Below are positions 7,509 through 23,197 of a stretch of 35,015 nt of DNA, one piece after another. Both the position numbers and the translations under genes were made by a program. Numbering within the stretch: position 1 is the stretch's first letter; the number at the start of each line of letters is the position of its first letter. The notes beneath the pieces are model-generated. The model searched no databases. It saw only the letters and a program-made list of their open reading frames with translations, and was not told the origin of the DNA. Source of the DNA: Desulfotignum sp. (GTDB taxonomy: Bacteria > Desulfobacterota > Desulfobacteria > Desulfobacterales > Desulfobacteraceae); the NCBI GenBank assembly GCA_021737695.1, contig JAIPDL010000037.1, positions 1 through 35,015 of the forward strand. The letters are read 5' to 3'.

Positions 7509-7958
7509 ATGGACAACCAGACCCTGTTCACCACCATTCAAGACCTGATTGATTCCCGGCAGCTGGCCGTGCTGTGCACCCAGAAGGACGGCCACCCCTA
7601 TGCCAGCCTGGTGGCGGTGGCCGCCACCCAAAAACTGAACCGGATCATTTTTCTGACTCCGAAGACCACGCGCAAATATGACAACCTCACAGCCTGCCCC
7701 AATGCCGCGTTTCTGATCAACAACAGTGAAAACCGGACCGAAGATTTCTACCAGGCGACTGCGGTCACGGCCACCGGAACGGTGATCCATGTGCCCGATG
7801 CTGAACAACAGGCCCTGACAGACATCTACCTGGCCCGCCACCCGCACCTGGAATCCTTTGCCGCAGCCCCCACCACAGCCCTGGTGTGTGTAAAGATCTC
7901 CAAATATATCCTTGTGAACCGGTTTCAGAATGTGTTTGAACTTGCGGTGACACCATGA
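7509..7958 (+). CDS. Pyridoxamine 5'-phosphate oxidase-like FMN-binding split-barrel protein
   Basis: A protein of about 149 residues with the split-barrel pattern of the pyridoxamine-phosphate-oxidase-like superfamily: a QLAVLCTQKDGHPYASLVAV strand pair, then IIFLTPKTTRKYDNL and NAAFLINNS. Members bind FMN, F420 or heme and reduce diverse substrates; the substrate here is unknown. The ATG at 7509 is chosen because a GGAGG ribosome-binding site (7499-7503) precedes it at good spacing; an upstream TTG at 7467 has no such site. Its stop overlaps the next gene by 4 bp (ATGA), so it is co-translated with the PEP-synthase-like protein and may act with it. Confidence 0.8.
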   Translation: MDNQTLFTTIQDLIDSRQLAVLCTQKDGHPYASLVAVAATQKLNRIIFLTPKTTRKYDNLTACPNAAFLINNSENRTEDFYQATAVTATGTVIHVPDAEQQALTDIYLARHPHLESFAAAPTTALVCVKISKYILVNRFQNVFELAVTP

Positions 7959-10168
7959 CCCCGCTGCTGGATATCCAAGGAATCCTGGCCGCAGGCAGAC
8001 AGCAGACCGGGACCAAGGCGTTTCACATGGCAAAACTGAAGAAAACCGGGTTCACCGTTCCCCGAACCTGGTGCATTCCCACCCCTGTGTATGAGGCATA
8101 TCTGGCGAACACCGGGATCCGGGACCGTATCGGAATTGAACTCAACCGAAAGGCCTTTGACCGGATGCGGTGGGAAGAGATCTGGGACGTATCGCTGCGT
8201 ATCCGCAATTTTTTTCTGACCACACCCTTGCCTTCCTCTCTGGATGAGCGGCTGACCCGGGAACTGGCAGCCGCCTGCAACGACTTTCCAGTAGCCGTCC
8301 GCTCCTCCGCCCCCGGAGAGGATGAAAAAGCGTCCTCCTTTGCCGGCCTGCACGCCTCGTTTCTCAATGTCACCTCTCCGGCCTCAATTGTCACCCATAT
8401 CAAACTGGTATGGGCCTCCCTGTTTTCCGATGCGGCCCTGCTCTACCGCAGGGAACTGGGACTGGCCGTGGAGCGCAGCACCATGGCTGTCCTGATCCAG
8501 GAGCTGATTCCCTCGGACTGTTCCGGGGTGTTTTTCAGCCGCAATCCGGCAAACAGCAGACAGATGCTCATCGAAGCGGTGTGGGGATTGAACCAGGGGC
8601 TGGTGGACGGGGATATCGCCCCAGACCGGTGGCACCTGGACCGGACCACCGGCCGGATTGAGGCCCACTATGACCCGAAGCGGTCCCACTGCATCCAGGC
8701 CGGCACCGGCGGGGTGGAACGGGTGGCACTAACGCCGGCTTTGGCCGACAAACCGCCTCTGGAACCAGCCATGATCGACCAGGTCCGGGAAGCGGGCCGC
8801 CGCCTGGAATCCCTTTTCGAACAGCCTCAGGATATGGAATGGACCTTTTGGCAGAACCGATTTTATGTACTCCAGTCCCGGGCCATCACCACCTCGGCAT
8901 CTAAAGACACGGATGACAAACGCACCTGGTACTTGAGCCTGCATCGCAGTTACGATAACCTCAAGGCCCTGTATGACAAAATCGAGCATTGCCTGATTCC
9001 CAAGATGATCCAGGTGGCAGAAGATCTGGGCCGCATCGATCTGTCCGCGCTGTCCCCTTCGAATCTGTGCGCTGAAATCGACCGCCGGCAGGCTGTCTAT
9101 GACCACTGGGTCAAGGTGTACTGGGCCGATTTCATCCCCTTTGCCCACGGGATCCGGCTGTTCGGCCAGGTGTACAACGATGCGGTCAAACCCGCCGACC
9201 CCTATGAATTCATGACCCTTCTGGAAAATACCGGCCTGAAGAGCGTCCGGCGCAACACCCTGCTGGAGGAACTGGCTGAATGCATTCGAACCGATCCCGG
9301 CCTGGCCCGGACCCTGGCACAGCACGGCCGGGCACCTTCAGACCATCGGTTTTCCCGGCTTCTGGCCGATTTCATCGAAGAATTCGGGGATCTGTCGTGT
9401 ACCACAGGCACGGGCAATGAATGCCAGTATGGAGACACGGCCATCATCCGCATCCTGCTGGCCTATTCACAGCGCTCGGCAAAACGCTTGGACCCGTCCG
9501 ATCCCGGCACGCTCGAAGATTCGTATCTTAAGGCGTTTGCCCCGGATCAGCAGACGTATGCAAAAGACCTGCTGCACCTGGGTCGGGAAAGCTTCCGGCT
9601 CCGGGATGACGACAACATCCACCTGGGGCGCATCGAAGCCCGGCTCCATGAAGCGCTCCAGGAAGGACAGACCCGTTTGTCGGCACCAGGAAATAACCCG
9701 GCAGACCTGGCATGCCTGACAAAAATTCCAGCCCTGAGTGCCGGTGCCCTGAACGCGGATACCGCTTCCGCCTCCGGCACTTTTCAGCGCACTGAAACCG
9801 GTGAGCCGGATACTGTGTCCGACCGCTGGTTCCGGGCACGCCAAATTGTGGGCCACCCTGCTGGCCAGGGAATTGCCAGAGGAACCGCCCGGGTAATCCG
9901 TGACCCCGGGGACCTGACCGGGTTCAACGAAGGCGAGGTCCTGATCTGCCAAGGGGTGGACCCCAACATGACCTTTGTGATTCCCCTGGCCGCCGCCGTG
10001 GTGGAGGCGCGGGGTGGCATGCTGATCCACGGCGCCATCATCGCCCGGGAATACGGCCTGCCCTGCGTAACGGGCGCGGACCGGATCCTGGAATACATCC
10101 AGACCGGGGACCGGGTCACTGTGGACGGATACCTTGGAATCGTTACCTGTGAGACCAGTCCTGACTGA
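7955..10168 (+). CDS. PEP synthase/rifampin phosphotransferase-like ATP-dependent dikinase
   Basis: A 737-residue enzyme with the architecture of the PEP synthase/pyruvate phosphate dikinase/rifampin phosphotransferase group. An N-terminal ATP-grasp-like PPDK_N domain (about 20-300) has AVRSSAPGEDEKASSFAGLH with Arg116. A central variable, probably substrate-binding region spans about 310-620. A C-terminal mobile phosphohistidine domain has the catalytic His692 in GGMLIHGAIIAREYG. The expected chemistry is ATP + acceptor + Pi or water giving phospho-acceptor + AMP. It lacks the C-terminal PEP/pyruvate barrel of true PEP synthase, so the acceptor is probably another molecule. It overlaps the flavoprotein gene by 4 bp. 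It is a one-chain analogue of the split PpsA/PpsB pair nearby, but has GC-rich codon use like the flank and is probably not part of that operon. Confidence 0.75.
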   Translation: MTPLLDIQGILAAGRQQTGTKAFHMAKLKKTGFTVPRTWCIPTPVYEAYLANTGIRDRIGIELNRKAFDRMRWEEIWDVSLRIRNFFLTTPLPSSLDERLTRELAAACNDFPVAVRSSAPGEDEKASSFAGLHASFLNVTSPASIVTHIKLVWASLFSDAALLYRRELGLAVERSTMAVLIQELIPSDCSGVFFSRNPANSRQMLIEAVWGLNQGLVDGDIAPDRWHLDRTTGRIEAHYDPKRSHCIQAGTGGVERVALTPALADKPPLEPAMIDQVREAGRRLESLFEQPQDMEWTFWQNRFYVLQSRAITTSASKDTDDKRTWYLSLHRSYDNLKALYDKIEHCLIPKMIQVAEDLGRIDLSALSPSNLCAEIDRRQAVYDHWVKVYWADFIPFAHGIRLFGQVYNDAVKPADPYEFMTLLENTGLKSVRRNTLLEELAECIRTDPGLARTLAQHGRAPSDHRFSRLLADFIEEFGDLSCTTGTGNECQYGDTAIIRILLAYSQRSAKRLDPSDPGTLEDSYLKAFAPDQQTYAKDLLHLGRESFRLRDDDNIHLGRIEARLHEALQEGQTRLSAPGNNPADLACLTKIPALSAGALNADTASASGTFQRTETGEPDTVSDRWFRARQIVGHPAGQGIARGTARVIRDPGDLTGFNEGEVLICQGVDPNMTFVIPLAAAVVEARGGMLIHGAIIAREYGLPCVTGADRILEYIQTGDRVTVDGYLGIVTCETSPD

Positions 10169-10181
10169 TTATCACTGGTCT
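10152..10181 (+). terminator. Hairpin at end of PEP-synthase-like gene
   Basis: AGACCAGT (10152-10159) and ACTGGTCT (10174-10181) form an 8-bp stem around the stop codon with a 14-nt loop. There is no U-run directly after it. A second AT-rich inverted repeat follows at 10196-10226. Confidence 0.35.
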
Positions 10182-10193
10182 GCTCAGGATATC

Positions 10194-10259
10194 ATAATAA
10201 AATCTTATGGATTTCATAATTTTATTTAAATTGACACCTTTTTTGCAACGCCATACACT
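10194..10259 (+). promoter_or_regulatory. LysR-type operator and sigma70 promoter of idi
   Basis: TTGACA (10231-10236), a 17-bp spacer and TACACT (10254-10259) form a good promoter just before idi. Upstream is an ATAA-N7-TTAT dyad (10194-10208) centred about 65 bp before the inferred start site, then CATAATTTTAT near the -35. The stretch 10194-10245 matches 12552-12603 before ppsA at 42 of 52 positions with no gaps and with the same distance to the -35 and -10. This fits a LysR regulator recognition site plus an activation site. The same region can also fold as an AT-rich hairpin (10196-10226). Confidence 0.7.
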
Positions 10260-10281
10260 TTGGTAAAAAAGGAGTCCTGAA

Positions 10282-10833
10282 ATGTTCTTGAAAGATGAAT
10301 ATGTTGTCTTGGTAGATGAAACAGACACCCCAATCGGGGTAAAAAAAAAATCGCGGGTTCATTCCTCATCAACCCCGTTACACCGGGCTTTTTCAATTTT
10401 TCTTTTCAAAAAAACCAAAGAACTTCTGCTGCAGCAGCGGTCAGAAGCAAAAAAAACCTGGCCCATGGTATGGTCAAACTCATGCTGTGGTCATCCCATT
10501 CCGGGCGAATCATATGAGACCGCCGTTGTCCGGCGGACACAATTTGAACTGGGTATTGATCTATCCGCCTTAATAAAAATATCCAATTACCGGTATTGCT
10601 TTTCAAAAGATGGGGTTATGGAAAATGAGATCTGCCCTATCTATGCTGGAATCTGTGAAAATGACATAGCGCCTGACAGCGATGAAATAAACGCCGTCAA
10701 ATGGATTGACTGGGATAACTGGCTTGCTGAAATCCGCACAGGCCCTGAGAACTATTCTCCATGGTGTGTCGAAGAAACCTTGATTCTGGCATCAGCAAAA
10801 AATTTTAAAAAACTTAAGCAGTTACCATTCTGA
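10282..10833 (+). CDS. idi: Isopentenyl-diphosphate delta-isomerase, type I
   Basis: Nudix-fold enzyme interconverting IPP and DMAPP. The 183-residue product has the type I hallmarks at the same positions as E. coli Idi: metal ligands His27, His34 and His71, catalytic Cys69 in SNSCCGHP, Glu114 and Glu116 in ENEICPIY, and SPWCVEE near the end. A GGAGT ribosome-binding site precedes the ATG. The gene is single, with its own promoter, and its 3' end overlaps the convergent phosphoesterase gene by 20 bp. Its context is telling: it sits beside a ubiX/ubiD aromatic cluster, and UbiX needs a dimethylallyl donor. The AT-richer composition matches that cluster rather than the left flank. Confidence 0.92.
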   Translation: MFLKDEYVVLVDETDTPIGVKKKSRVHSSSTPLHRAFSIFLFKKTKELLLQQRSEAKKTWPMVWSNSCCGHPIPGESYETAVVRRTQFELGIDLSALIKISNYRYCFSKDGVMENEICPIYAGICENDIAPDSDEINAVKWIDWDNWLAEIRTGPENYSPWCVEETLILASAKNFKKLKQLPF

Positions 10834-11473
10834 CCATGATCTGTTTGTTGTCCGTGTCATAAACGACATATTTTGATGCCTCAAAATCATCTCTTGAAAA
10901 ACCGATGCTGCCGACATTGATCAGGTATTTCTGGTTATTTTCCACAGGAATAATGCAGTTTTTGTTTATTCTTCCACGATAAACAATTCTGTCTTTATAG
11001 GTAATCATCTTCAGCTTGTGGGTATGACCCGTGAAAAAAATCCGTGTGTCTGAATTATTGAAAACAGACTTTAAATAATAATCCGTCACATCATAGATGT
11101 AAGTGGTCATCTTGTCCGGTGGTGTCCCGTGGACAAAGTGGCTGTCTTCCAATTTCAGATATACCGGTGTTTTTTCAAGGTACTGGATGGATTTTCCAGA
11201 AATCGCTGCGATATTTTTCAGCAGGGGCTCTTTTATTGCCGTTGGAAACAGTTCAAGATATTCTGGGTTGAACATAGCCAGTTCATGGTTGCCTCTAACC
11301 GACGTCACATTTTTTGATATTAACAACTGAATGGTTTCTTCAGGTTGATTCCCGTATCCGATAATGTCACCAAGACAAATATACCGATCGATCTGAAATT
11401 TTTCCATATCGTCGAAAACTGCCAACATTTTTTCATAAGAGCTGTGGACATCTGAAAAAACAGCTATTTTCAT
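10814..11473 (-). CDS. YfcE-like calcineurin-type metallophosphoesterase
   Basis: A 219-residue two-metal phosphoesterase. Motifs are DVH (8-10), GDIIGYG (35-41), GNHE (61-64), HG (115-116) and GHTH (149-152), the complete metal-binding set of the YfcE/MJ0936-like family. These enzymes hydrolyse phosphodiesters or phosphomonoesters; the substrate is unknown. The ATG at 11473 is preferred over an upstream in-frame start at 11542 because the conserved beta-strand MKIAVFSDVH starts there and an AAGG site precedes it. It lies 71 bp downstream of the LysR gene on the same strand and may be cotranscribed with it. It could act on DMAPP, a phenolic phosphate ester or a nucleotide; nothing in the sequence decides. 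Confidence 0.82.
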   Translation of the reverse strand: MKIAVFSDVHSSYEKMLAVFDDMEKFQIDRYICLGDIIGYGNQPEETIQLLISKNVTSVRGNHELAMFNPEYLELFPTAIKEPLLKNIAAISGKSIQYLEKTPVYLKLEDSHFVHGTPPDKMTTYIYDVTDYYLKSVFNNSDTRIFFTGHTHKLKMITYKDRIVYRGRINKNCIIPVENNQKYLINVGSIGFSRDDFEASKYVVYDTDNKQIMVRMVTA

Positions 11474-11544
11474 AATTTTACCTTGTTTTAAAGAAAACTT
11501 CAGCAACCAAAATAAGGCGCAATCCAGACAAGTAAACCGCAAAT

Positions 11545-12504
11545 TTATTCTTTAAACCGTTGCCCTGCCAGAATTTTTGCCATGATGGACCCGATTTTAT
11601 TTTGTGAGGACTCTTCTATAAAAGAACGTTTAATCACCTCATAAAAAGCCGATGCTGCAGGTGAAGGAGGGTTGTTTTTTGAGAAACCTAAGCTGACGTC
11701 CAGAGACAATCTGATGTCTTTTAAACGGTGCATGACAATTTTTTTTTCATTCACTTTTTGTTCGACCGAAGGTTTGACAAGAAAGGATATTCCTTCTCCC
11801 CTTTCAACCAGATTGATAATGAATTCCGTATTATTTGATTCCATAAACACATTGGGCGCCGCCTTATTGCTGCTGTAAAGTTGTACAACTCGCTTCCGTG
11901 TACCGGATCCGGTTCCTTTCAGAATAATCGGTTCATTTTCAATGTCGTGAAATGTGATCTCGTTCTTCCTGGAAAGCGGATGCCCTACCGCCATAATCAC
12001 AACAATTTCCTCCTGGCTGAAAGGGACAAACTGAATTCGGGGATCTTTGACTTCCATTTGTGCCACAACAATAATCTCGTTTTTAAACTCTCTCAAGCTG
12101 TTGATCATCGCCATGGAGCTGCCTTCTTCCAGTATGATTCGGATGTTGGGATACGCCCTGTGAAATACAGAAACAATAGATGGCATAATATGCTTGGCAT
12201 ACGCTTTGGTACAACCGATCGTCAGAAGGCCCCGGTCCATTTCCTTGATCTGGGTCAGCATCTTCTCTATATCATTTTCCAATGCAAATATTTTTTCAGC
12301 TTTTTCAAACAAAAGCTTACCGATATGGGACAGAAAAAGGGATCTTCCCTTCCGATTGAATAACGTGATGTCATAAAAATTTTCAAATAATTTAATCTGT
12401 GCTGTCACGGCCGGCTGGGTAATAAAAAGCTTCTGTGCTGCGATTGTATAGCTGTCATATTTCGCAACAAAATAAAATGCCCGCAGCTGATTTAAATTGA
12501 CCAT
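11545..12504 (-). CDS. LysR-type transcriptional regulator
   Basis: A 319-residue LysR regulator. The N-terminal winged helix-turn-helix (about 1-60) includes the AAQKLFITQPAVTAQI recognition region, and an effector-binding periplasmic-protein-like domain occupies about 90-300. An AAGGGA site precedes the ATG. It is divergent from ppsA across a 272-bp region that contains a 25-bp palindrome typical of LysR sites. The same box occurs before idi, so it probably activates both transcripts in response to a phenolic compound or pathway intermediate and may repress itself. The effector is not readable from the sequence. Confidence 0.88.
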   Translation of the reverse strand: MVNLNQLRAFYFVAKYDSYTIAAQKLFITQPAVTAQIKLFENFYDITLFNRKGRSLFLSHIGKLLFEKAEKIFALENDIEKMLTQIKEMDRGLLTIGCTKAYAKHIMPSIVSVFHRAYPNIRIILEEGSSMAMINSLREFKNEIIVVAQMEVKDPRIQFVPFSQEEIVVIMAVGHPLSRKNEITFHDIENEPIILKGTGSGTRKRVVQLYSSNKAAPNVFMESNNTEFIINLVERGEGISFLVKPSVEQKVNEKKIVMHRLKDIRLSLDVSLGFSKNNPPSPAASAFYEVIKRSFIEESSQNKIGSIMAKILAGQRFKE

Positions 12505-12546
12505 TAAGCGATTCCCTTCTTGGCAGCGTGGATGACAAAGATCAAA

Positions 12547-12617
12547 AATTTATAAGAAATTCTTATAAATTGCATAAATTTATATGAATTGACAGTTTTT
12601 TTGTCAAGAATTATTAA
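12547..12617 (+). promoter_or_regulatory. LysR-type operator and sigma70 promoter of the pps operon
   Basis: A perfect inverted repeat, AATTTATAAGAA (12547-12558) and TTCTTATAAATT (12560-12571) around one base, has the T-N11-A character of LysR sites. A second AT palindrome ATAAATTTAT (12574-12583) abuts TTGACA (12589-12594). TATTAA (12612-12617) follows after 17 bp. The main dyad centres near -65 from the inferred start, the classic LysR arrangement. The dyad also lies where the divergent lysR promoter should be, allowing autoregulation. The leader to ppsA is about 150 nt and shows nothing else I recognise. Confidence 0.75.
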
Positions 12618-12776
12618 TGCCTTCATATACTTGCTGCTTTGATGAAAAAGAAATCAGCTCCGCGCTCCGTATCACTGGATTCTTTCTCATTCTGCCTTTT
12701 CGATTCCAGGCAAGTATGGTCCGAGTTATTTTTTGGGTTTTTACTGCACCTAACGTAACTTTTCAAGGAGGCTGAA

Positions 12777-14618
12777 ATGGCTGACAAGAGTTTTCCCAAT
12801 CCCCACGAAGTAGAAGCGATACCCGGAACCGAAGGCTGGGAAAGGATGTATCCGTACCACTATTTTTTTACGACAAAGGACAAGGAGCGTGAGGCCTACG
12901 AGAACAATATGTTCTGGTTCAATGATGCCCTGCATTACCCTGAGCCTCTGTATCCCTTTGATATTATCTGGGATGAAGCATGGTTTCTTGCGCTCTCACA
13001 ATTCAACACCCGGATTTTCATGATTCCGCCGGTGTATGGCGTTGACCATCGTATTATCAACGGAAATGTTTACATTTCTCCAGTTCCAGTCACGGACCCG
13101 GAAGAGGTGCAAAAAAGAATTCCATTGTTCATGGAAAGGGCTGGTTACTATTATGAGAATTGGGACAGGCTCCATGACCAGTGGGAAAAAAAGATGCGTG
13201 GGATTATTTCAGATATTGAAGCACTTGAAATAAAACAATTGCCGGCCATGGAGGATATTTCGGTTGTCAAAAACGGGATAGGCACCTCATCAGGGTATGA
13301 ATTGCTCAAAACTTACGATAAATTAATAGATCTGGGAATCCGCTGCTGGCAATATCATTTTGAATTTTTGAACCTGGGATATGCGTCCTATGTCACTTTT
13401 GTTGATTTCTGTTCAAAAGCCTTCCCTGATATTCCGTTACAGAAAATAACCCAGATGGTCGCAGGTATCGATGTTATTTTGTACAAACCGGACGATGAGC
13501 TGAAAAAACTTGCCAAGCTGGCCGTTGAATTCGATCTGGCATCACAGATTGGCGATGATACCAAAGACGTCAAAAGCGTCATTGACGTCCTTCAATCATC
13601 TGAAAAGGGGAAAAAATGGGTGGCGGCCTGGGAAAATGCCAGATATCCATGGTTCAATATCTCAACCGGCACCGGCTGGTACCACCAGGATATTTCATGG
13701 AATGACAATCTGAATATCCCCATGAGTTCAATTCGAATATATATAAAAAAAATTATTGACGGCCATAATATCGACAGGCCCATGGACGCTATTATTGAGG
13801 AGCGGAAAAGACTGGTTCAGGAATACAGAGGTTTTTTAAAAACCGATGAAGACAGGCAGACTTTTGATCAGCTTCATGGCACCGCCGAACTGGTGTTTCC
13901 CTATGTTGAAAATCATATGTTCTATGTAGAGCACTGGTTTCACTCTGTGTTCTGGAACAAGATGAGGGAAATTGCCGCCATCATGACAGATCATAAATTT
14001 ATCAATGGACCTGAAGATGTCTGGATGATGTCCCGCAGTGAAATCAAGGAAGCCTTATGGGATCTTGTCACTGCATGGGCAACCGGTACAAAAGGATATG
14101 GTCCACTCCACTGGCCTGAAGAAATCGCCTGGAGAAAAGGGGTTTATCAAAAATTTAAAGAACATCCGCCCATCCCGGCCGTCGGCACTCCGCCTGAAGT
14201 CATAGCGGAACCGTTCACCATTGTGCTCTGGGGCGTAACCAATGAGAGCATGACCGCCTGGTCCAAACTAAAGAAAATCGGCGATCCGGACAAGGTGAAT
14301 GAAATCGAAGGATTCGCCGGATCCCCCGGGGTTGTAGAAGGCATAGCACGGGTATGCCGCTCCGTTGAGGATATCGGCCAACTCAAGGAGGGTGAGATAC
14401 TGGTGGCGCCGACCACATCGCCTTCCTGGGCACCTGTATTTCAAAAAATCAAAGGAGTGATTACCGATGTGGGTGGGATTATGTGCCATGCCGCCATTGT
14501 CTGTCGTGAATACGGGATGCCGGCGGTTGTCGGAACAGGCCAGTCCACAACCATTATCAAATCCGGTATGAAAATTAAATTGAATGGTGATACAGGCAGA
14601 ATATATATCGAAAGGTAG
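12777..14618 (+). CDS. ppsA: Phenylphosphate synthase subunit A (phosphohistidine subunit)
   Basis: A 613-residue protein matching the large subunit of phenylphosphate synthase, which phosphorylates phenol with ATP to phenylphosphate, AMP and Pi. The C-terminal mobile domain carries His571 in GGIMCHAAIVCREYGMP, the swivelling phosphohistidine of the PEP synthase family. The ATP-binding domain is absent and supplied by the next gene. The aromatic-rich N-terminal 500 residues probably form the phenol-binding and subunit-contact part. An AAGGAGG site (12765-12771) fixes the start. It is the first gene of a long operon behind a LysR-type promoter. The size (about 70 kDa) equals the Thauera aromatica subunit. 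A related phenolic such as catechol is an alternative substrate. Confidence 0.85.
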   Translation: MADKSFPNPHEVEAIPGTEGWERMYPYHYFFTTKDKEREAYENNMFWFNDALHYPEPLYPFDIIWDEAWFLALSQFNTRIFMIPPVYGVDHRIINGNVYISPVPVTDPEEVQKRIPLFMERAGYYYENWDRLHDQWEKKMRGIISDIEALEIKQLPAMEDISVVKNGIGTSSGYELLKTYDKLIDLGIRCWQYHFEFLNLGYASYVTFVDFCSKAFPDIPLQKITQMVAGIDVILYKPDDELKKLAKLAVEFDLASQIGDDTKDVKSVIDVLQSSEKGKKWVAAWENARYPWFNISTGTGWYHQDISWNDNLNIPMSSIRIYIKKIIDGHNIDRPMDAIIEERKRLVQEYRGFLKTDEDRQTFDQLHGTAELVFPYVENHMFYVEHWFHSVFWNKMREIAAIMTDHKFINGPEDVWMMSRSEIKEALWDLVTAWATGTKGYGPLHWPEEIAWRKGVYQKFKEHPPIPAVGTPPEVIAEPFTIVLWGVTNESMTAWSKLKKIGDPDKVNEIEGFAGSPGVVEGIARVCRSVEDIGQLKEGEILVAPTTSPSWAPVFQKIKGVITDVGGIMCHAAIVCREYGMPAVVGTGQSTTIIKSGMKIKLNGDTGRIYIER

Positions 14619-14627
14619 CTGGATATC

Positions 14628-15713
14628 ATGGAAAAAAGACATGACTACGTTCTTTGGTTTGATGAATGCAATCTTGAGTCCATCCCACTGGTCGGTGGGA
14701 AAAATGCCAGCCTTGGTGAACTGCTCAATGCTGACATACCCGTACCTCCGGGTTTCGCTGTCACCACAAAAGCCTATGAACAGTTTCTGGAACAAGGTGG
14801 AATAAAAAAGCAAATTTTCAAGATTCTGGAAGACATAAAGCCCAATGACATGGACTCTGGAGAAACGGCCAGCAAAGAAATCCGATCACTCATCGAAAAT
14901 ACACCGATCAGCGAAAGTCTCCAGGATTACATGGGTGAATTCTACAGAAGACTTTCTAAAAAGTGCCATGTCCCGGCTGTTCCGGTAGCGGTGAGATCCA
15001 GCGCCACCGCAGAAGACCTTCCCGGAGCCAGCTTTGCCGGCCAGCAGGATACTTTTCTCTGGATAAGGGGGATTGATGATGTGTTCACCCATATAAAAAA
15101 ATGCTGGTCCAGTCTTTTTGCTGCAAGAGCCATCTATTACAGAGCCAAAATGGGGTTCCCCCATGAAAAAGTTGAAATTTCGGTGGGGGTTCAGAAAATG
15201 GCAAATGCCTGGACTGCCGGGGTCATGTTCACTCTAAACCCGGCCACGGGAGACAGGGCATCCATTGCCATTGATGCGAACTGGGGATTCGGGGAAAGTG
15301 TTGTCAGCGGTGAATGTACCCCTGATAATTTTATTGTCAATAAAGTTACCAACGAAATAATCAAAAAAACCATTTCCCATAAAACCTTTTTGTTCACCCG
15401 TGACCCTGAAAACCATTGCGTCATAAAAAAGGATGTTCCTGTAGAAAGACAAGATACCCAATGTGTCGTGGATTTGGATGTTGTTGAACTTGCCCGGATT
15501 GGGAAGAAAATTGAAACTCATTACGGCAAGGCAATGGACATTGAGTGGGCCATCGACAAAGACACGCCGGGAAAAGCCAAGATCATGATACTACAGAGCC
15601 GTCCTGAAACGGTCTGGAGTGATAAAAAAGTGGAGCCGGTTGTGGCTTCACGATCTTCAGCTCTCGAACATATCTGCGCCGGACTTGTCGCAGGCAGAAA
15701 AATCAGCAGTTGA
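14628..15713 (+). CDS. ppsB: Phenylphosphate synthase subunit B (ATP-binding subunit)
   Basis: A 361-residue stand-alone PPDK_N/PEP synthase ATP-binding domain. Motifs include VGGKNASLGELL near residue 22, AVRSSATAEDLPGASFAG with the nucleotide-contacting Arg, GVMFTLNP, DIEWA, and the terminal LQSRPETVW strand. It has no phosphohistidine domain, so it must act with PpsA, whose His receives the beta-phosphoryl group from ATP. It starts 9 bp after ppsA with a poor ribosome-binding site, consistent with translational coupling. The size (about 40 kDa) matches the Thauera subunit. The last 20 residues are a family-unlike tail of no obvious function. Confidence 0.85.
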   Translation: MEKRHDYVLWFDECNLESIPLVGGKNASLGELLNADIPVPPGFAVTTKAYEQFLEQGGIKKQIFKILEDIKPNDMDSGETASKEIRSLIENTPISESLQDYMGEFYRRLSKKCHVPAVPVAVRSSATAEDLPGASFAGQQDTFLWIRGIDDVFTHIKKCWSSLFAARAIYYRAKMGFPHEKVEISVGVQKMANAWTAGVMFTLNPATGDRASIAIDANWGFGESVVSGECTPDNFIVNKVTNEIIKKTISHKTFLFTRDPENHCVIKKDVPVERQDTQCVVDLDVVELARIGKKIETHYGKAMDIEWAIDKDTPGKAKIMILQSRPETVWSDKKVEPVVASRSSALEHICAGLVAGRKISS

Positions 15714-15849: not shown

Positions 15850-17256
15850 ATGAAAGACATGAGAGATTTTATTGCCACCTGTGAAGAAAAAGGTCTTTTG
15901 AAACGGATCACTGCAGAAGTTGACACCCATCTGGAATTGTCACACATTGCCAAATTAAACGAAGAGGCCCATGGACCGGCTCTGTTGTTTGAAAATTGCA
16001 AAGGCCACACATCACCGGTTATTACCAGTGTGGCCACCACCGTTCAACGGCTTGCCATCATCATGGGAGAGGATGAAAATTCAAGCCTAACCGACCTATA
16101 CGGGGCCTGGGCAGAAAAAGCAAAAAAGCCCATTCCACCGGTATATGTCGACAAATCAATAGCCCCGTGCAAAGAAAATATCATGATGGGTGATCAAGTG
16201 GATTTGAATATGTTTCCTGTCCCTCATTACTACCCTTTAGATGGGGGAAAATATTATGGAACCGCCCATTTTATCATTACAAAAGACCCTGATTCCGGTT
16301 GGGTCAACCTGGGCACATACAGAAGTCAGCTTCTGGGCAAAGATAAAATCGGTACCCAGTTTATCAAAGGAAAACATGCTGACATCATGCTGAAAAAATA
16401 TCAGGCCCTTGGGAAACCCATGCCCTGCGCCTCCATTTCAGGGTGCGATCCAATATTGTTTATCCTGGGCGCTGCCCGGGTTGGTGCGTTCACCAGTGAA
16501 TATGATGTGGCAGGGGCATTCCGTGGTGAAGCGGTCGAAGTCGTTAAAGGAGAGGTGGTTGATCTGCCGATTCCAGCCCATGCGGAAATTGTTGTGGAAG
16601 GTTTTGTGGATGCGGAAAAATTCATGGAAGAAGGACCGTTCGGTGAATATACCGGATATTATTCAGGTGTTGGTACAGATCCCAGAAACTTTATTGATGT
16701 GAAATGTGTGACTTACAGAAACAATCCGATTCACTGGGGCACAACGGTTGGGCGTGCTGTCACTGATTCCCATATGGTTATGGCGTTGTCTTATGGGGCG
16801 ACCCTCTGGCAGCAGCTCAATGAAATGAATATCCCGGGTTTGAAAAACTGCTATTGTCCGCCGGAAGGTGCCGGCCGATTCCTGGCTATTATTTCCATGA
16901 AACAAATGTATCCCGGGCATGTTGACCAGGTATTGACCGCAGCCATTTCCACGGAAATGGGTGCCTATGGTCTTAAAACAGTTATTGTGGTGGATGACGA
17001 CATTGATTCATGGGACATCCCAAGAGTCATGTATGCCATGAGTTTCAGATTCCAGCCCAATCGCTGCCAGATCATCAAGAGAGGCAGGTCTACGCCTCTT
17101 GATCCTTCTTTACCTATCAATGCCAGATGGATTACAGGAAGACTTCTCATGGACTGTACGATTCCCTATGAATGGGAGCCAAAACCCATACAGATCCAAC
17201 TGGACCCCGCCGTGGTGGAAAGAGTAAAAGAAAGATGGTCTGAACTCGGTTTATAA
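15850..17256 (+). CDS. UbiD-family (de)carboxylase, phenylphosphate carboxylase PpcB-like
   Basis: A 468-residue UbiD-family enzyme, a group that uses prenylated FMN for reversible (de)carboxylation of aromatic and unsaturated acids. The catalytic Arg158 (TYRSQ) and the Glu261/Glu266 pair (EEGPFGEY) have the spacing of the R-E-E network known from Fdc1/UbiD. The ATG at 15850 follows an AAAGGAG site; the open frame extends upstream to a GTG at 15781, but that stretch is hairpin sequence and not protein-like. In this context it should carboxylate phenylphosphate (or the phosphate ester of another phenol) to a hydroxybenzoate. Only one UbiD-like subunit is present, unlike the PpcA+PpcB pair of Thauera but like the single ppcB of the Geobacter metallireducens cluster. 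Confidence 0.85.
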   Translation: MKDMRDFIATCEEKGLLKRITAEVDTHLELSHIAKLNEEAHGPALLFENCKGHTSPVITSVATTVQRLAIIMGEDENSSLTDLYGAWAEKAKKPIPPVYVDKSIAPCKENIMMGDQVDLNMFPVPHYYPLDGGKYYGTAHFIITKDPDSGWVNLGTYRSQLLGKDKIGTQFIKGKHADIMLKKYQALGKPMPCASISGCDPILFILGAARVGAFTSEYDVAGAFRGEAVEVVKGEVVDLPIPAHAEIVVEGFVDAEKFMEEGPFGEYTGYYSGVGTDPRNFIDVKCVTYRNNPIHWGTTVGRAVTDSHMVMALSYGATLWQQLNEMNIPGLKNCYCPPEGAGRFLAIISMKQMYPGHVDQVLTAAISTEMGAYGLKTVIVVDDDIDSWDIPRVMYAMSFRFQPNRCQIIKRGRSTPLDPSLPINARWITGRLLMDCTIPYEWEPKPIQIQLDPAVVERVKERWSELGL

Positions 17257-17270
17257 GGAAAGGATGACAC

Positions 17271-18923
17271 GTGAAACCTATTCGATATACAAAAGCGATG
17301 ACAGATGAATTTGTCCGTGACGGATACTGGACCCAGGAAACCTTTTATGATTTCTGGGAAAAAAATGCCCGTGAAATACCCAATCAGGAAGCCCTGGTGG
17401 ATTCAAAATACAGGCTTACCTGGAGTGAGGCAGAGAAACTGGCGGATGCCATGGCAATCTCCTGGGTTGAAATGGGCATAGAAAAACATGCCCGGGTGAT
17501 CATTCAGTCTCCCAACAGTGTGTATGGCTTTCTGGCAAGAATTGCCTGTGAACGGGCCGGCTTAATTTCTCTGACCGTGTATCCCTACCTGAGAAAAAAA
17601 GAGCTGACTTACATGGTGGACAGGACCAAGGCATCTGCGGTTATTATCCTGCACACCTATAATAAGTTTAATTACCTTGAAATGTATGAGGATCTGCAGA
17701 AAGACTTTCCCCATCTGAAAAATATTTTTCTGTTTGATGATCAGGTTCCAGACAGCGCTCCGGAAGGCACTTTTTCTCTTCCTGCGATTGTTGAAAGCCG
17801 AGTCAAACAACCCATTGATAAAAAAATTCTGGCAGAAAGACGACTGGATGCCATAGAAAATGTGGCTATTCTCACCACAACTTCAGGCACTACCGGGATC
17901 CCCAAGCTGGTTGAATGGCCGGCAGCGCCACGGATCTGTACCTCCAAGGGCCGGGTGGATATCTGGAGCCTGACAAAAAAAGACATCACCATGGCCATTG
18001 CCCCCCACGCCGGGGGAGCGGCAGGAACCTTGACCTATTTTGCCGCCCCGATTGCAGGCGCCAAAACCGTTATGCTTGAAGAGTTTTCACCAGATGCTGC
18101 CCTGGCACTTATTGAAAAAGAACGGGCAACAGCTATTGGGGTAGTCCCTACCCACCTGATTCGAATGCTTGAAGCCGATATATCAAAGTATGACTTGAGT
18201 TCCCTCAGATTTATTCGGTCGGCTGGCGGATATCTGCCGCCTCAAGTTGCAGAGGAAGCGGAAGCGGCGTTTGGCGCTTCGATCACCAGTGATCTTGGCA
18301 CACAGGATATGGGCTCAGTATCAGGATGCCGGGTGGAAGATTCCAAAGACCTCAGACGGCGAACCGTCGGTAGAATGCTTCCGGGAAACAAAGTCAGGCT
18401 CGCACATCAGGAAAACAGAGAAATAACCGTGCCTGATGGTGACCCAGGCATACTGTATTTCAGAGGGCCCCATGCCCCGGCCGGATATTACAGGGATGAA
18501 GAGCTGACCTCAACGGTATTTGACAAAGACGGGTGGACCACAACCGAAGATATTGTCAAGTTTGATCATGGGTGTCTGTGGATATTGGGAAGGGCCAAAG
18601 ACATGATTATCCGGGGTGGCCAGAATATCTATCCGGCCGAAGTGGAAGGTCTTTTAAATGATCATCCTGCTGTGGGATCAGTGGCCATTGTAGGCTATCC
18701 GGACAGGGAGATGGGTGAGCGCTGTGCCGCCTATGTTATCCCAAAACCCGGGAAGAATTTCGATTTTCAAACCATGGTCGATCATCTGAAATCCAAAGAT
18801 ATCGCCATGTTCAAACTTCCCGAACATCTGGAGGTCGTTACTGAATTTCCGACAGTCGGCGATTCCGGTAAGGTGAACAAGGAAACCCTGAAAAAAGATA
18901 TCAGAGAAAAACTGGGTTTGTAA
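17271..18923 (+). CDS. Aryl-CoA ligase / AMP-forming acyl-adenylating enzyme
   Basis: A 550-residue ANL superfamily enzyme. The P-loop TSGTTGIPK is at 204-212, the aromatic-acid pocket and A5-like motif around SDLGTQDMGS, the GRAKDMIIRGGQNIYPAEVE hinge in the C-terminal domain, and the catalytic Lys534 in GDSGKVNKE. It activates a carboxylic acid to an acyl-AMP and normally to a CoA thioester. Given the neighbours, 4-hydroxybenzoate or another hydroxybenzoate is the likely substrate, feeding the benzoyl-CoA pathway. It begins with GTG 15 bp after ubiD behind an AAGGAAAGGA site. The overall pattern also recalls dihydroxybenzoate-AMP ligases, so substrate assignment is an inference from context. 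Confidence 0.82.
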   Translation: MKPIRYTKAMTDEFVRDGYWTQETFYDFWEKNAREIPNQEALVDSKYRLTWSEAEKLADAMAISWVEMGIEKHARVIIQSPNSVYGFLARIACERAGLISLTVYPYLRKKELTYMVDRTKASAVIILHTYNKFNYLEMYEDLQKDFPHLKNIFLFDDQVPDSAPEGTFSLPAIVESRVKQPIDKKILAERRLDAIENVAILTTTSGTTGIPKLVEWPAAPRICTSKGRVDIWSLTKKDITMAIAPHAGGAAGTLTYFAAPIAGAKTVMLEEFSPDAALALIEKERATAIGVVPTHLIRMLEADISKYDLSSLRFIRSAGGYLPPQVAEEAEAAFGASITSDLGTQDMGSVSGCRVEDSKDLRRRTVGRMLPGNKVRLAHQENREITVPDGDPGILYFRGPHAPAGYYRDEELTSTVFDKDGWTTTEDIVKFDHGCLWILGRAKDMIIRGGQNIYPAEVEGLLNDHPAVGSVAIVGYPDREMGERCAAYVIPKPGKNFDFQTMVDHLKSKDIAMFKLPEHLEVVTEFPTVGDSGKVNKETLKKDIREKLGL

Positions 18924-21557: not shown

Positions 21558-22151
21558 ATGAAAAAACGTTTAATTGTGGGCATCGCAGGTGCAAGCGGAG
21601 TCATTTACGGTGTCCGGCTGCTTGAGGTTCTGAAACCGACTGACATCGAAACCCATTTGATCATTTCAGAAGCGGGAAAACTGAATATAAAAATTGAAAC
21701 CCGTTATGACGTGGATGACGTCCTTTCAATGGCTGATGTTACCTATACCAATAGAGATATTGCCGCATCCGTTGCCAGCGGTTCATTCGAGACCATAGGG
21801 ATGGTGGTTGCCCCCTGCACCGTAAAAACACTTTCAGGTATCGCCAATTCCTTCAATGAAAATCTTTTGATTCGTGCTGCAGATGTTCAACTCAAGGAAA
21901 AACGCAAACTGGCCCTGATGTTCAGGGAAACCCCATTGCATGTCGGTCATTTGAGACTGCTGACTCTGGCTGCGGAAATGGGCGCCCACATTGTGCCACC
22001 CGTACCGGCTTTTTATCATCATCCCGAGACACTGGATGACATCATCAACCAGTCCGTGGGAAAAGTACTTGATTACATCGGCATAGCCCATGATCTTTTC
22101 AAACGCTGGGACAATTCAGAGTTGGTAAAACTAAAATCAGAGCTCAATTGA
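21558..22151 (+). CDS. ubiX: UbiX-family flavin prenyltransferase
   Basis: A 197-residue flavoprotein of the UbiX/Pad1 family, which joins a dimethylallyl group to FMN to make prenylated FMN for UbiD enzymes. The N-terminal VGIAGASGVIYGVRLLE is the FMN-phosphate loop. APCTVKTLSGIANSFNENLLIRAADVQLKEKRKLALMFRETPLHVGHL is the conserved core with the prenyl-phosphate-binding Arg/Glu region. It starts 15 bp after the CBS gene. It presumably serves the UbiD protein encoded upstream in the same operon and depends on the dimethylallyl supply that idi could provide. Confidence 0.92.
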   Translation: MKKRLIVGIAGASGVIYGVRLLEVLKPTDIETHLIISEAGKLNIKIETRYDVDDVLSMADVTYTNRDIAASVASGSFETIGMVVAPCTVKTLSGIANSFNENLLIRAADVQLKEKRKLALMFRETPLHVGHLRLLTLAAEMGAHIVPPVPAFYHHPETLDDIINQSVGKVLDYIGIAHDLFKRWDNSELVKLKSELN

Positions 22152-22192: not shown

Positions 22193-23197
22193 ATGACAAC
22201 GCATCCCAAATGTAAAATCACAGTCATTAAAAGAACCGTCAACCAGGATCTTATTGATGACTATTTGAAAAATTTCCCGAAAAACAGCTCTCCTTGCAGC
22301 ACGTTTCAGGAAGGGGATGAATTTCTTGTAACTTCTGAATTCAACATGCCGGAAAATTTCTGCCACTGGGCCTGGGCTGACATTCGAAGAGAAATTCTGG
22401 CAGTCATCAACGACGCCTCCTATAACTGGTACCAAAAGCCTGGGGTCGTCATTGCCGGTTGCACCGACTGGTTCCGGCCCGTATATTTCAAAATCGAAAA
22501 ACTCTCCTTTGCCGCTGCACCAAGTGATAAAAAATTCAAGGCGGTGCTGTTTGATCTGGATGGCACATTAGTGGATTTTCAATGGGACCTGGATAAAGCC
22601 ATCCCTGAAATCTGCGACATCCTTTCAGGTGCCGGTATGGATATGGCATGCTATGGAGACCCACCCAGTTACGTCAGTCTGTTCAATCTTACCCGGGATA
22701 TAACGGATCAGTGGATCAGCCGGGATGGGGCCGAAGATGCACGAACACTTCTGGCAAAAATGGATGAAGTTTACGACCGATATGATCAGGATGCCATGAC
22801 ACGGTGGCAGCCTTATCCGGAGACCCGAACCATACTGACAGAGTTGGCCGAAAAGGGTTACCGTCTGGGTGTTGTGAGCAATTGCGGCCGGGAAGCTGTC
22901 CACGGCATTCTATCCCGTTTCAATCTGACCGGGTTTTTTGAGATTATTCTGGCCCGTCAGGACATATCCCGGCTCAAGCCCCATCCTGAAAGTCTGAATC
23001 TGGCCCTTCAGGCATTATCTTTTCCACCGGAACAAGTGTTGTTTGTCGGTGATTCAATCAATGACATCATTGCTGCTGACAACACCGGTATGACTTCCTG
23101 TTTTCTATCATGCGGTGAAAGCCGGATCACAGGCTTTTCCGCTAGCCCTAATGTGCACCATATATCCCGCCTGTCGGATCTTCTGAACATTTTATAA
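22193..23197 (+). CDS. TIGR04076-domain/HAD-hydrolase fusion, possible PpcD-like subunit
   Basis: A 334-residue two-domain protein. Residues 1-105 match the small TIGR04076 family pattern (CKITVIKRTVNQDLIDDYL, MPENFCHWAWADI, GVVIAGCTDWFRPVYFKIEKL) of unknown function. Residues 115-334 are a HAD phosphatase with all four motifs: Asp121 and Asp123 in LFDLDGTLVDF, VVSNCG, LKPHPES and VLFVGDSINDI. In Thauera the phenylphosphate carboxylase delta subunit (PpcD) is a HAD protein, so this may be its counterpart acting with the UbiD protein. Alternatively it hydrolyses another phosphate in the pathway. It is the last gene of the AT-richer operon; a GC-rich operon with its own promoter follows. Confidence 0.78.
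   Translation: MTTHPKCKITVIKRTVNQDLIDDYLKNFPKNSSPCSTFQEGDEFLVTSEFNMPENFCHWAWADIRREILAVINDASYNWYQKPGVVIAGCTDWFRPVYFKIEKLSFAAAPSDKKFKAVLFDLDGTLVDFQWDLDKAIPEICDILSGAGMDMACYGDPPSYVSLFNLTRDITDQWISRDGAEDARTLLAKMDEVYDRYDQDAMTRWQPYPETRTILTELAEKGYRLGVVSNCGREAVHGILSRFNLTGFFEIILARQDISRLKPHPESLNLALQALSFPPEQVLFVGDSINDIIAADNTGMTSCFLSCGESRITGFSASPNVHHISRLSDLLNIL

Follow-up and report, generated by a model that had tools for sequence, protein, structure and literature searches.

Matching predicted LysR-type operator/promoter blocks precede idi and the pps operon in a Desulfotignum genome

Why should a gene for an isoprenoid isomerase carry the same promoter block as an operon for the degradation of an aromatic compound? 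The question is raised by a 35,015-nucleotide stretch of DNA from Desulfotignum sp. (GenBank assembly GCA_021737695.1, contig JAIPDL010000037.1, positions 1 to 35,015 of the forward strand), referred to here as the window. In this stretch, idi, which encodes a type-1 isopentenyl-diphosphate delta-isomerase (Idi), and the pps operon, which encodes phenylphosphate synthase-like proteins and a UbiD-family carboxylase, are each preceded by a similar 52-bp block, and a gene for a LysR-type regulator lies between them. The answer that we consider likely is that a shared LysR operator drives both the pps operon and idi, co-induction of idi supplying dimethylallyl pyrophosphate (DMAPP) for the prenylated flavin mononucleotide (prFMN) of the UbiD-type carboxylase.

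The predicted LysR-type operator/promoters of idi (10194-10245, plus strand) and of the pps operon (12552-12603, plus strand) align without gaps at 42 of 52 positions, and no other pair of 52-mers from the two intergenic regions matches better. Dinucleotide shuffles of both regions (n = 2000) gave at most 33, and the maximum reached 34 when shuffling was restricted to the AT-rich cores (n = 2000), which confirms the likeness claimed in a preliminary description of this DNA. Both copies feature a distal ATAA-N7-TTAT dyad (10194-10208 and 12552-12566), a proximal ATAA(T/A)TTTAT element (10216-10225 and 12574-12583) and a perfect -35 hexamer, TTGACA (10231-10236 and 12589-12594). The -10-like hexamers, TACACT for idi (10254-10259, plus strand) and TATTAA for the pps operon (12612-12617, plus strand), start 17 bp after TTGACA. 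The idi promoter was reported by a promoter scan (10/12 matches), while the pps promoter, which fails a rule demanding T at the last -10 position, is absent from the output. All elements were found where the preliminary description had placed them, the positions near -65 and -45 presupposing that transcription starts some 7 bp downstream of the -10. LysR-type operators follow the T-N11-A rule, and both copies have such a dyad some 65 bp ahead of the start, together with a second site near -35.

The regulator gene (11545-12504, minus strand) lies between the blocks, as described earlier, and its start is 47 bp from the pps box. Its product, the presumed binder of both boxes, contains PF00126 (HTH_1, 56.2 bits versus a cut-off of 26.6) and PF03466 (LysR_substrate, 142.4 versus 28). 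The regulator gene and idi are not adjacent, being separated by a gene for a calcineurin-like phosphoesterase (10814-11476, minus strand; PF12850/PF00149, supported by synteny). In many relatives, including some with no visible idi, the phosphoesterase gene is found directly after the LysR gene or beside idi. On the other side, a 737-residue phosphoenolpyruvate (PEP)-synthase-like gene (7955-10168) stops 25 bp ahead of the idi box, and read-through from this gene into idi may occur. It is missing at the corresponding spot in two genomes, G008 and G011.

A 43-bp pattern derived from both blocks, allowing up to three mismatches, occurs at only two places in the window genome (G000; 4.2 Mb in 158 contigs, 88% complete), which are the two blocks themselves; the reversed pattern has no match anywhere in this genome. 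When 389 genomes of the order were sampled with a pattern drawn from the copies and their relatives, again with up to three mismatches, 40 sites were identified in 34 genomes, as opposed to none for the reversed control. The surroundings of all sites were read. The downstream gene is ppsA at 29 sites and idi at 5; the remaining six precede a molybdopterin oxidoreductase gene (four sites), open reading frames (ORFs) followed by ubiD hits (one site, G342) or an unnamed ORF (one site, G331). Every site with at most one mismatch (17 in all) is followed by ppsA or idi, and the six other sites have 2 or 3 mismatches. The preliminary description had named beforehand a genome scan as a test of its proposal; unrelated promoters do not generally carry the block, 34 of the 40 sites being located at ppsA or idi. 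This proportion and the two-site occurrence in the window genome rule out a widespread promoter element. The two-target operator proposed earlier is thus supported by its uniqueness in the window genome and by its conservation before idi and ppsA in other genera. No plasmid copy of the region 10100-12800 was found at high identity.

A LysR homologue adjoins 28 of the 29 ppsA boxes and is divergent in 27; the contig ends at the box in the remaining case. The N-terminal helix-turn-helix regions are alike in the 20 box-linked LysR proteins aligned, which include that of the window. The molybdopterin oxidoreductase sites (L113 7020, L115 7027, L116 1154 and L117 3021) are found, with 2-3 mismatches, in four genomes of one other family of the order. 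The oxidoreductase was domain-tested in one genome and assigned in the other three by likeness of the protein start. These sites hint at a further target of LysR or of a paralogue. In several other families (loci L091, L111, L112 and L117), box-bearing pps operons carry a ppsA that is only 41-42% identical. Despite this, ubiD is about 79% identical in L091, L111 and L117, where it was read, which suggests that a different activating kinase is paired with the same carboxylase in those families.

Close idi homologues (E up to 1e-40) are present in 10 of 86 genomes of the window's family, and the box precedes idi in five of them, belonging to three genera (G000, G023, G356, G300 and G272, with 0, 0, 0, 2 and 3 mismatches, respectively). 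A matrix of 37 operator columns, built from the pps sites of other genomes and using 17 of the 18 family pps boxes, finds the idi box in all five, with scores ranging from 26.7 to 52.3, a value reached by none of 500 shuffles in each upstream region. The window idi block scores 26.7, and the maximum in its 500 shuffles is -0.8. In G023, which represents a different genus, the box and idi are followed by part of a LysR gene on the opposite strand, an arrangement like that of the window. G008 and G011 belong to the same genus as the window and retain the LysR gene, the phosphoesterase gene and the pps genes with an intact box; the gene upstream of idi is missing, and what is left of idi lies below a decayed box, the -35 of which is gone.

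The idi box is probably not a fresh copy of the pps promoter. In the window, it matches its own pps box at 42 of 52 positions and the 18 family pps boxes (own included) at a mean of 41.3; the corresponding values are 40 and 41.4 for G300, and 38 and 35.8 for G272. This identity table is confined to pps boxes of the window's family, with G011 left out as identical in sequence to G008 and the half-box of G374 placed by its TTGACA. The comparison covers the window, G300 and G272, as the own pps box is unseen for G023 and G356. Likeness between the idi and pps boxes of one genome is about the same as likeness between genomes; therefore, a pps promoter that was recently duplicated or spread by gene conversion fails to explain the resemblance, and this reading was rejected for these three genomes, in which the own pps box is no closer than others. 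In G300 (L104, 8203-10670), a second LysR gene, with a product 48% identical to that of the window, is located between the pps and idi boxes, and a weaker box (4 mismatches) lies by this gene, before a membrane-protein-like ORF.

Association of idi with ubiX and ubiD takes other forms as well. In G264 and G389, idi comes after ubiX at the distal end of the pps operon. G272 has six idi genes, one in the pps locus and five, all with the same score, spaced 19-24 kb apart. The five-copy cluster spans 3.17-3.27 Mb of contig C1, and the two repeats read (L141 and L142) encode a UbiD decarboxylase, a coenzyme A (CoA) ligase, a TAXI-type TRAP transporter, UbiX and Idi; the decarboxylase, ligase and transporter were family-tested on the first copy. 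Both repeats also hold ORFs resembling insertion-sequence genes. The repeat is probably an amplified phthalate cluster. PMC8269228 counts Desulfobacula toluolica Tol2 among the phthalate degraders that have a phthaloyl-CoA decarboxylase of the UbiD type. If the repeat is indeed a phthalate cluster, idi accompanies two different UbiD pathways.

In the 86 family genomes, idi and the operon ubiD are both present in 9, idi alone in 1, ubiD alone in 12 and neither in 64 (Fisher P = 5.5e-6, a value inflated by relatedness, since the genomes are related and the counts are not independent events). The contig of the idi-only genome, G356, still shows ppsA beside idi. For four distant idi genes (37-41% identity) among the 389 genomes, the fetched stretches gave no hit to pps genes, ubiD or ubiX, and two of the four (G196 and G177) adjoin genes that, judged by eye, resemble those of the mevalonate pathway. 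Named-genome idi loci were surveyed as the best 80 of 553, some on short contigs. The first five of these 80, from Desulfobacula and relatives, are adjoined by LysR or pps genes; the other 75 gave no ubiX or ubiD hits (E 1e-8, in the available flanks), one of them, L163, being the end of a Desulfobacula contig. The idi match of G396, which spans only residues 50-172, is probably this same contig end.

The idi gene of the window (10282-10833, plus strand) encodes a protein of 183 residues that exceeds the cut-offs of NF002995 (206.3 versus 127 bits) and TIGR02150 (149.4 versus 105.8 bits) and aligns with solved isomerases. H27, H34, C69, H71, E114 and E116, the catalytic His, Cys and Glu residues of this enzyme type, are invariant in an alignment of eight sequences. 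In the pps operon, all genes of which given here with coordinates map to the plus strand, ppsA (12777-14618) encodes a phenylphosphate synthase-like subunit with a PEP-utilizer mobile domain (PF00391; also above the cut-off of NF006152, a family named "hypothetical protein"), and ppsB (14628-15713) a subunit with the PPDK ATP-binding domain (PF01326). Both are presumably phenylphosphate synthase subunits, a naming taken from the operon context. The UbiD-family phenylphosphate carboxylase subunit beta (15850-17256) narrowly passes the TIGR02724 cut-off (471.0 versus 468.95). An AMP-forming CoA ligase (17271-18923; PF00501, role assigned by context), the UbiX flavin prenyltransferase (21558-22151; NF004685, 260.6 versus 188; TIGR00421, 235.7 versus 108.9) and a HAD-type phosphatase with an N-terminal TIGR04076 domain (22193-23197) follow. 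The operon also encodes a UPF0261 protein and HD-like and CBS-like ORFs, the last two named by eye.

In the mechanism that we propose, the LysR protein, encoded between its two targets, would probably bind at two places, the T-N11-A dyad around -65 and an activation site covering the -35, and would switch on both promoters in response to a phenol-related effector. The pps operon would make phenylphosphate, which the UbiD-family enzyme would carboxylate. The UbiD family, with members in anaerobic phenol and phthalate degradation, has prFMN as its cofactor; as the family as a rule needs it, the phenylphosphate carboxylase presumably does too, by analogy. UbiX of the same operon would make prFMN from FMN and dimethylallyl (pyro)phosphate. 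Idi would convert isopentenyl pyrophosphate to DMAPP, and its co-induction may top up the prenyl donor when much UbiD protein needs cofactor loading. Most likely, then, idi shares the phenol-gene switch in these sulfate reducers, which seemingly degrade phenol, because the carboxylase needs a flavin cofactor built from the Idi product; the preliminary description had offered no metabolic reason. From the gene content and the boxes, we infer LysR binding, induction by phenol, use of DMAPP by the window UbiX and a limiting supply of DMAPP.

The donor used by UbiX bears on this scheme. According to PMC6541611, UbiX attaches a dimethylallyl moiety to reduced FMN, the donor being dimethylallyl phosphate (DMAP), DMAPP or both, depending on the enzyme. 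The same paper reports that Phe181 of Pseudomonas aeruginosa UbiX blocks DMAPP, that Gln203 of the DMAPP-specific Aspergillus niger enzyme holds the beta-phosphate of DMAPP and that His164 of the O157 enzyme likely does so, the authors adding that the residue at position 181 is not the sole determinant of donor use. Gln165 of the window UbiX, at the position of residue 181 of the P. aeruginosa enzyme, aligns with residue 203 of 6qlg and residue 164 of 1sbz, and suggests, within that limit on what one residue determines, direct use of DMAPP. Gln is likewise present in the pps-linked or repeat UbiX of five fetched loci, which come down to three different genes, those of G264, of G389 and of the G272 repeat; His occupies the corresponding position in UbiX of the G342 cluster, from another family. 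The phosphoesterase beside LysR was considered as a DMAPP-to-DMAP enzyme and set aside, the Gln of UbiX pointing to direct DMAPP use. Among the ten genomes tested, ispH is present in eight and missing from two incomplete assemblies, G000 (88%) and G023 (81%), and no type-2 isomerase scores above the cut-off in any of the ten, a partial 144-bit match being found in G011. Idi is therefore not the sole source of DMAPP where ispH is present, and the idea that it might be is unsupported.

Several observations weigh against the proposed mechanism. No close idi is found in 12 of the 21 ubiD-bearing family genomes, and the relatedness of the genomes tempers the co-occurrence reported above. Among the best 80 of 553 named-genome loci, hits to LysR, pps, ubiD or ubiX are limited to five Desulfobacula-like loci with longer context, the exception being two Kaiserbacteria with PEP-enzyme hits to ppsA/ppsB; the idi link is therefore lineage-bound. 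As to the boxes, 6 of the 40 sites precede genes other than ppsA or idi, the idi of G374 retains only the proximal half-box (its whole-operator score is reached by 227 of 500 shuffles), and the idi genes of G264, G389 and the G272 repeat lack a box of their own, with matrix scores no better than those of shuffles. The gene itself is reduced to a 65-bp piece plus its 3' end in G008 and G011, cut at residue 53 behind a foreign, by eye transposase-like, ORF in G289, and interrupted by one stop in G356. Such remnants, truncation and internal stop indicate that idi is dispensable, and repeated losses fit an optional booster. As to the cofactor, PMC7500099 describes a related Desulfatiglans anilini carboxylase, acting on phenylphosphoamidate, for which FMN alone sufficed, a result that speaks against prFMN being generally required.

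Three other explanations can be set against a shared operator that serves prFMN supply. Idi products feed all isoprenoids and phenol stresses membranes, so that the operator might be real and shared while idi supports isoprenoid synthesis in general, for menaquinone, undecaprenyl phosphate or membrane repair, during growth on toxic phenol. We regard this as unlikely, as idi genes of this group are placed with ubiX or ubiD in three arrangements, one of which is a second UbiD cluster with no pps genes in the stretches read, while it is two of the distant idi genes that adjoin the mevalonate-pathway-like genes. The dispensability of idi, lost or broken more than once, and its absence from the 12 ubiD-bearing genomes would be expected had a chance rearrangement put a copy of the pps promoter before idi, driving it without benefit. 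Such an accident is very improbable, given that the idi box is retained in three genera with conserved dyads and -35 and a divergent linker, and has decayed where idi is gone.

The perfect TTGACA, for its part, would suit a block that is bound by some other regulator, or that is simply a strong sigma-70 promoter, the adjacent LysR gene being incidental. We give this explanation the least weight of all, because the conserved dyads fall outside the promoter hexamers and LysR homologues, with similar DNA-binding regions in the 20 aligned, accompany nearly all ppsA boxes. A LysR operator shared by the pps operon and idi, with co-induced Idi feeding the cofactor of the carboxylase, remains the explanation that we prefer.

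LysR regulators of aromatic catabolism similar to BenM, CatM and PcaQ typically have a divergent target operon. The system described here has the same domain composition, a divergently placed gene, a T-N11-A dyad close to -65 and a further site over the -35, but differs in that an isoprenoid isomerase gene is driven as well, from a separate second promoter; the window LysR also falls far short of the BenM and PcaQ cut-offs of NCBIfam. Anaerobic degradation of phenol proceeds via phenylphosphate synthase and carboxylase in Thauera and Aromatoleum. PEP-synthase-like ppsA and ppsB, a UbiD-type carboxylase beta subunit and UbiX in the cluster are shared with that route and with D. anilini, in which the UbiX-like protein was found only on phenol (PMC7500099). 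In contrast, idi of the window is under the same operator as the pps genes, and the main text of the D. anilini paper contains neither "isomerase" nor "LysR" (PMC7500099). As in the UbiX-UbiD prFMN system, ubiX and ubiD are co-encoded; extra genes beside ubiD are common, and the accessory roles named in the accessible part of PMC10865409, those of phosphatase subunit and prFMN chaperone (LpdD), do not include an isomerase that supplies the donor. In line with the preliminary description, no precedent for an operator shared by idi and pps genes was found in the part of the open-access literature covered, although the 2013 genome paper of D. toluolica Tol2 may mention one. What is new is the target, idi, and not the regulatory principle.

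We lean towards the view that this group of Idi proteins consists of dedicated cofactor-supply isomerases, there to feed UbiX with DMAPP in these sulfate reducers and tied to the UbiD-dependent breakdown of aromatics through a LysR operator in common, through a place in the operon or through a second ubiD-ubiX cluster; prenyl-donor supply would then be able to limit prFMN enzymes in nature. The prFMN/UbiD literature examined, as far as accessible, offered no discussion of prenyl-donor supply in cells as a regulated step. If true, the arrangement would provide a natural, testable case of donor supply mattering for UbiD and UbiX, and would suggest including idi in the heterologous expression of UbiD enzymes.

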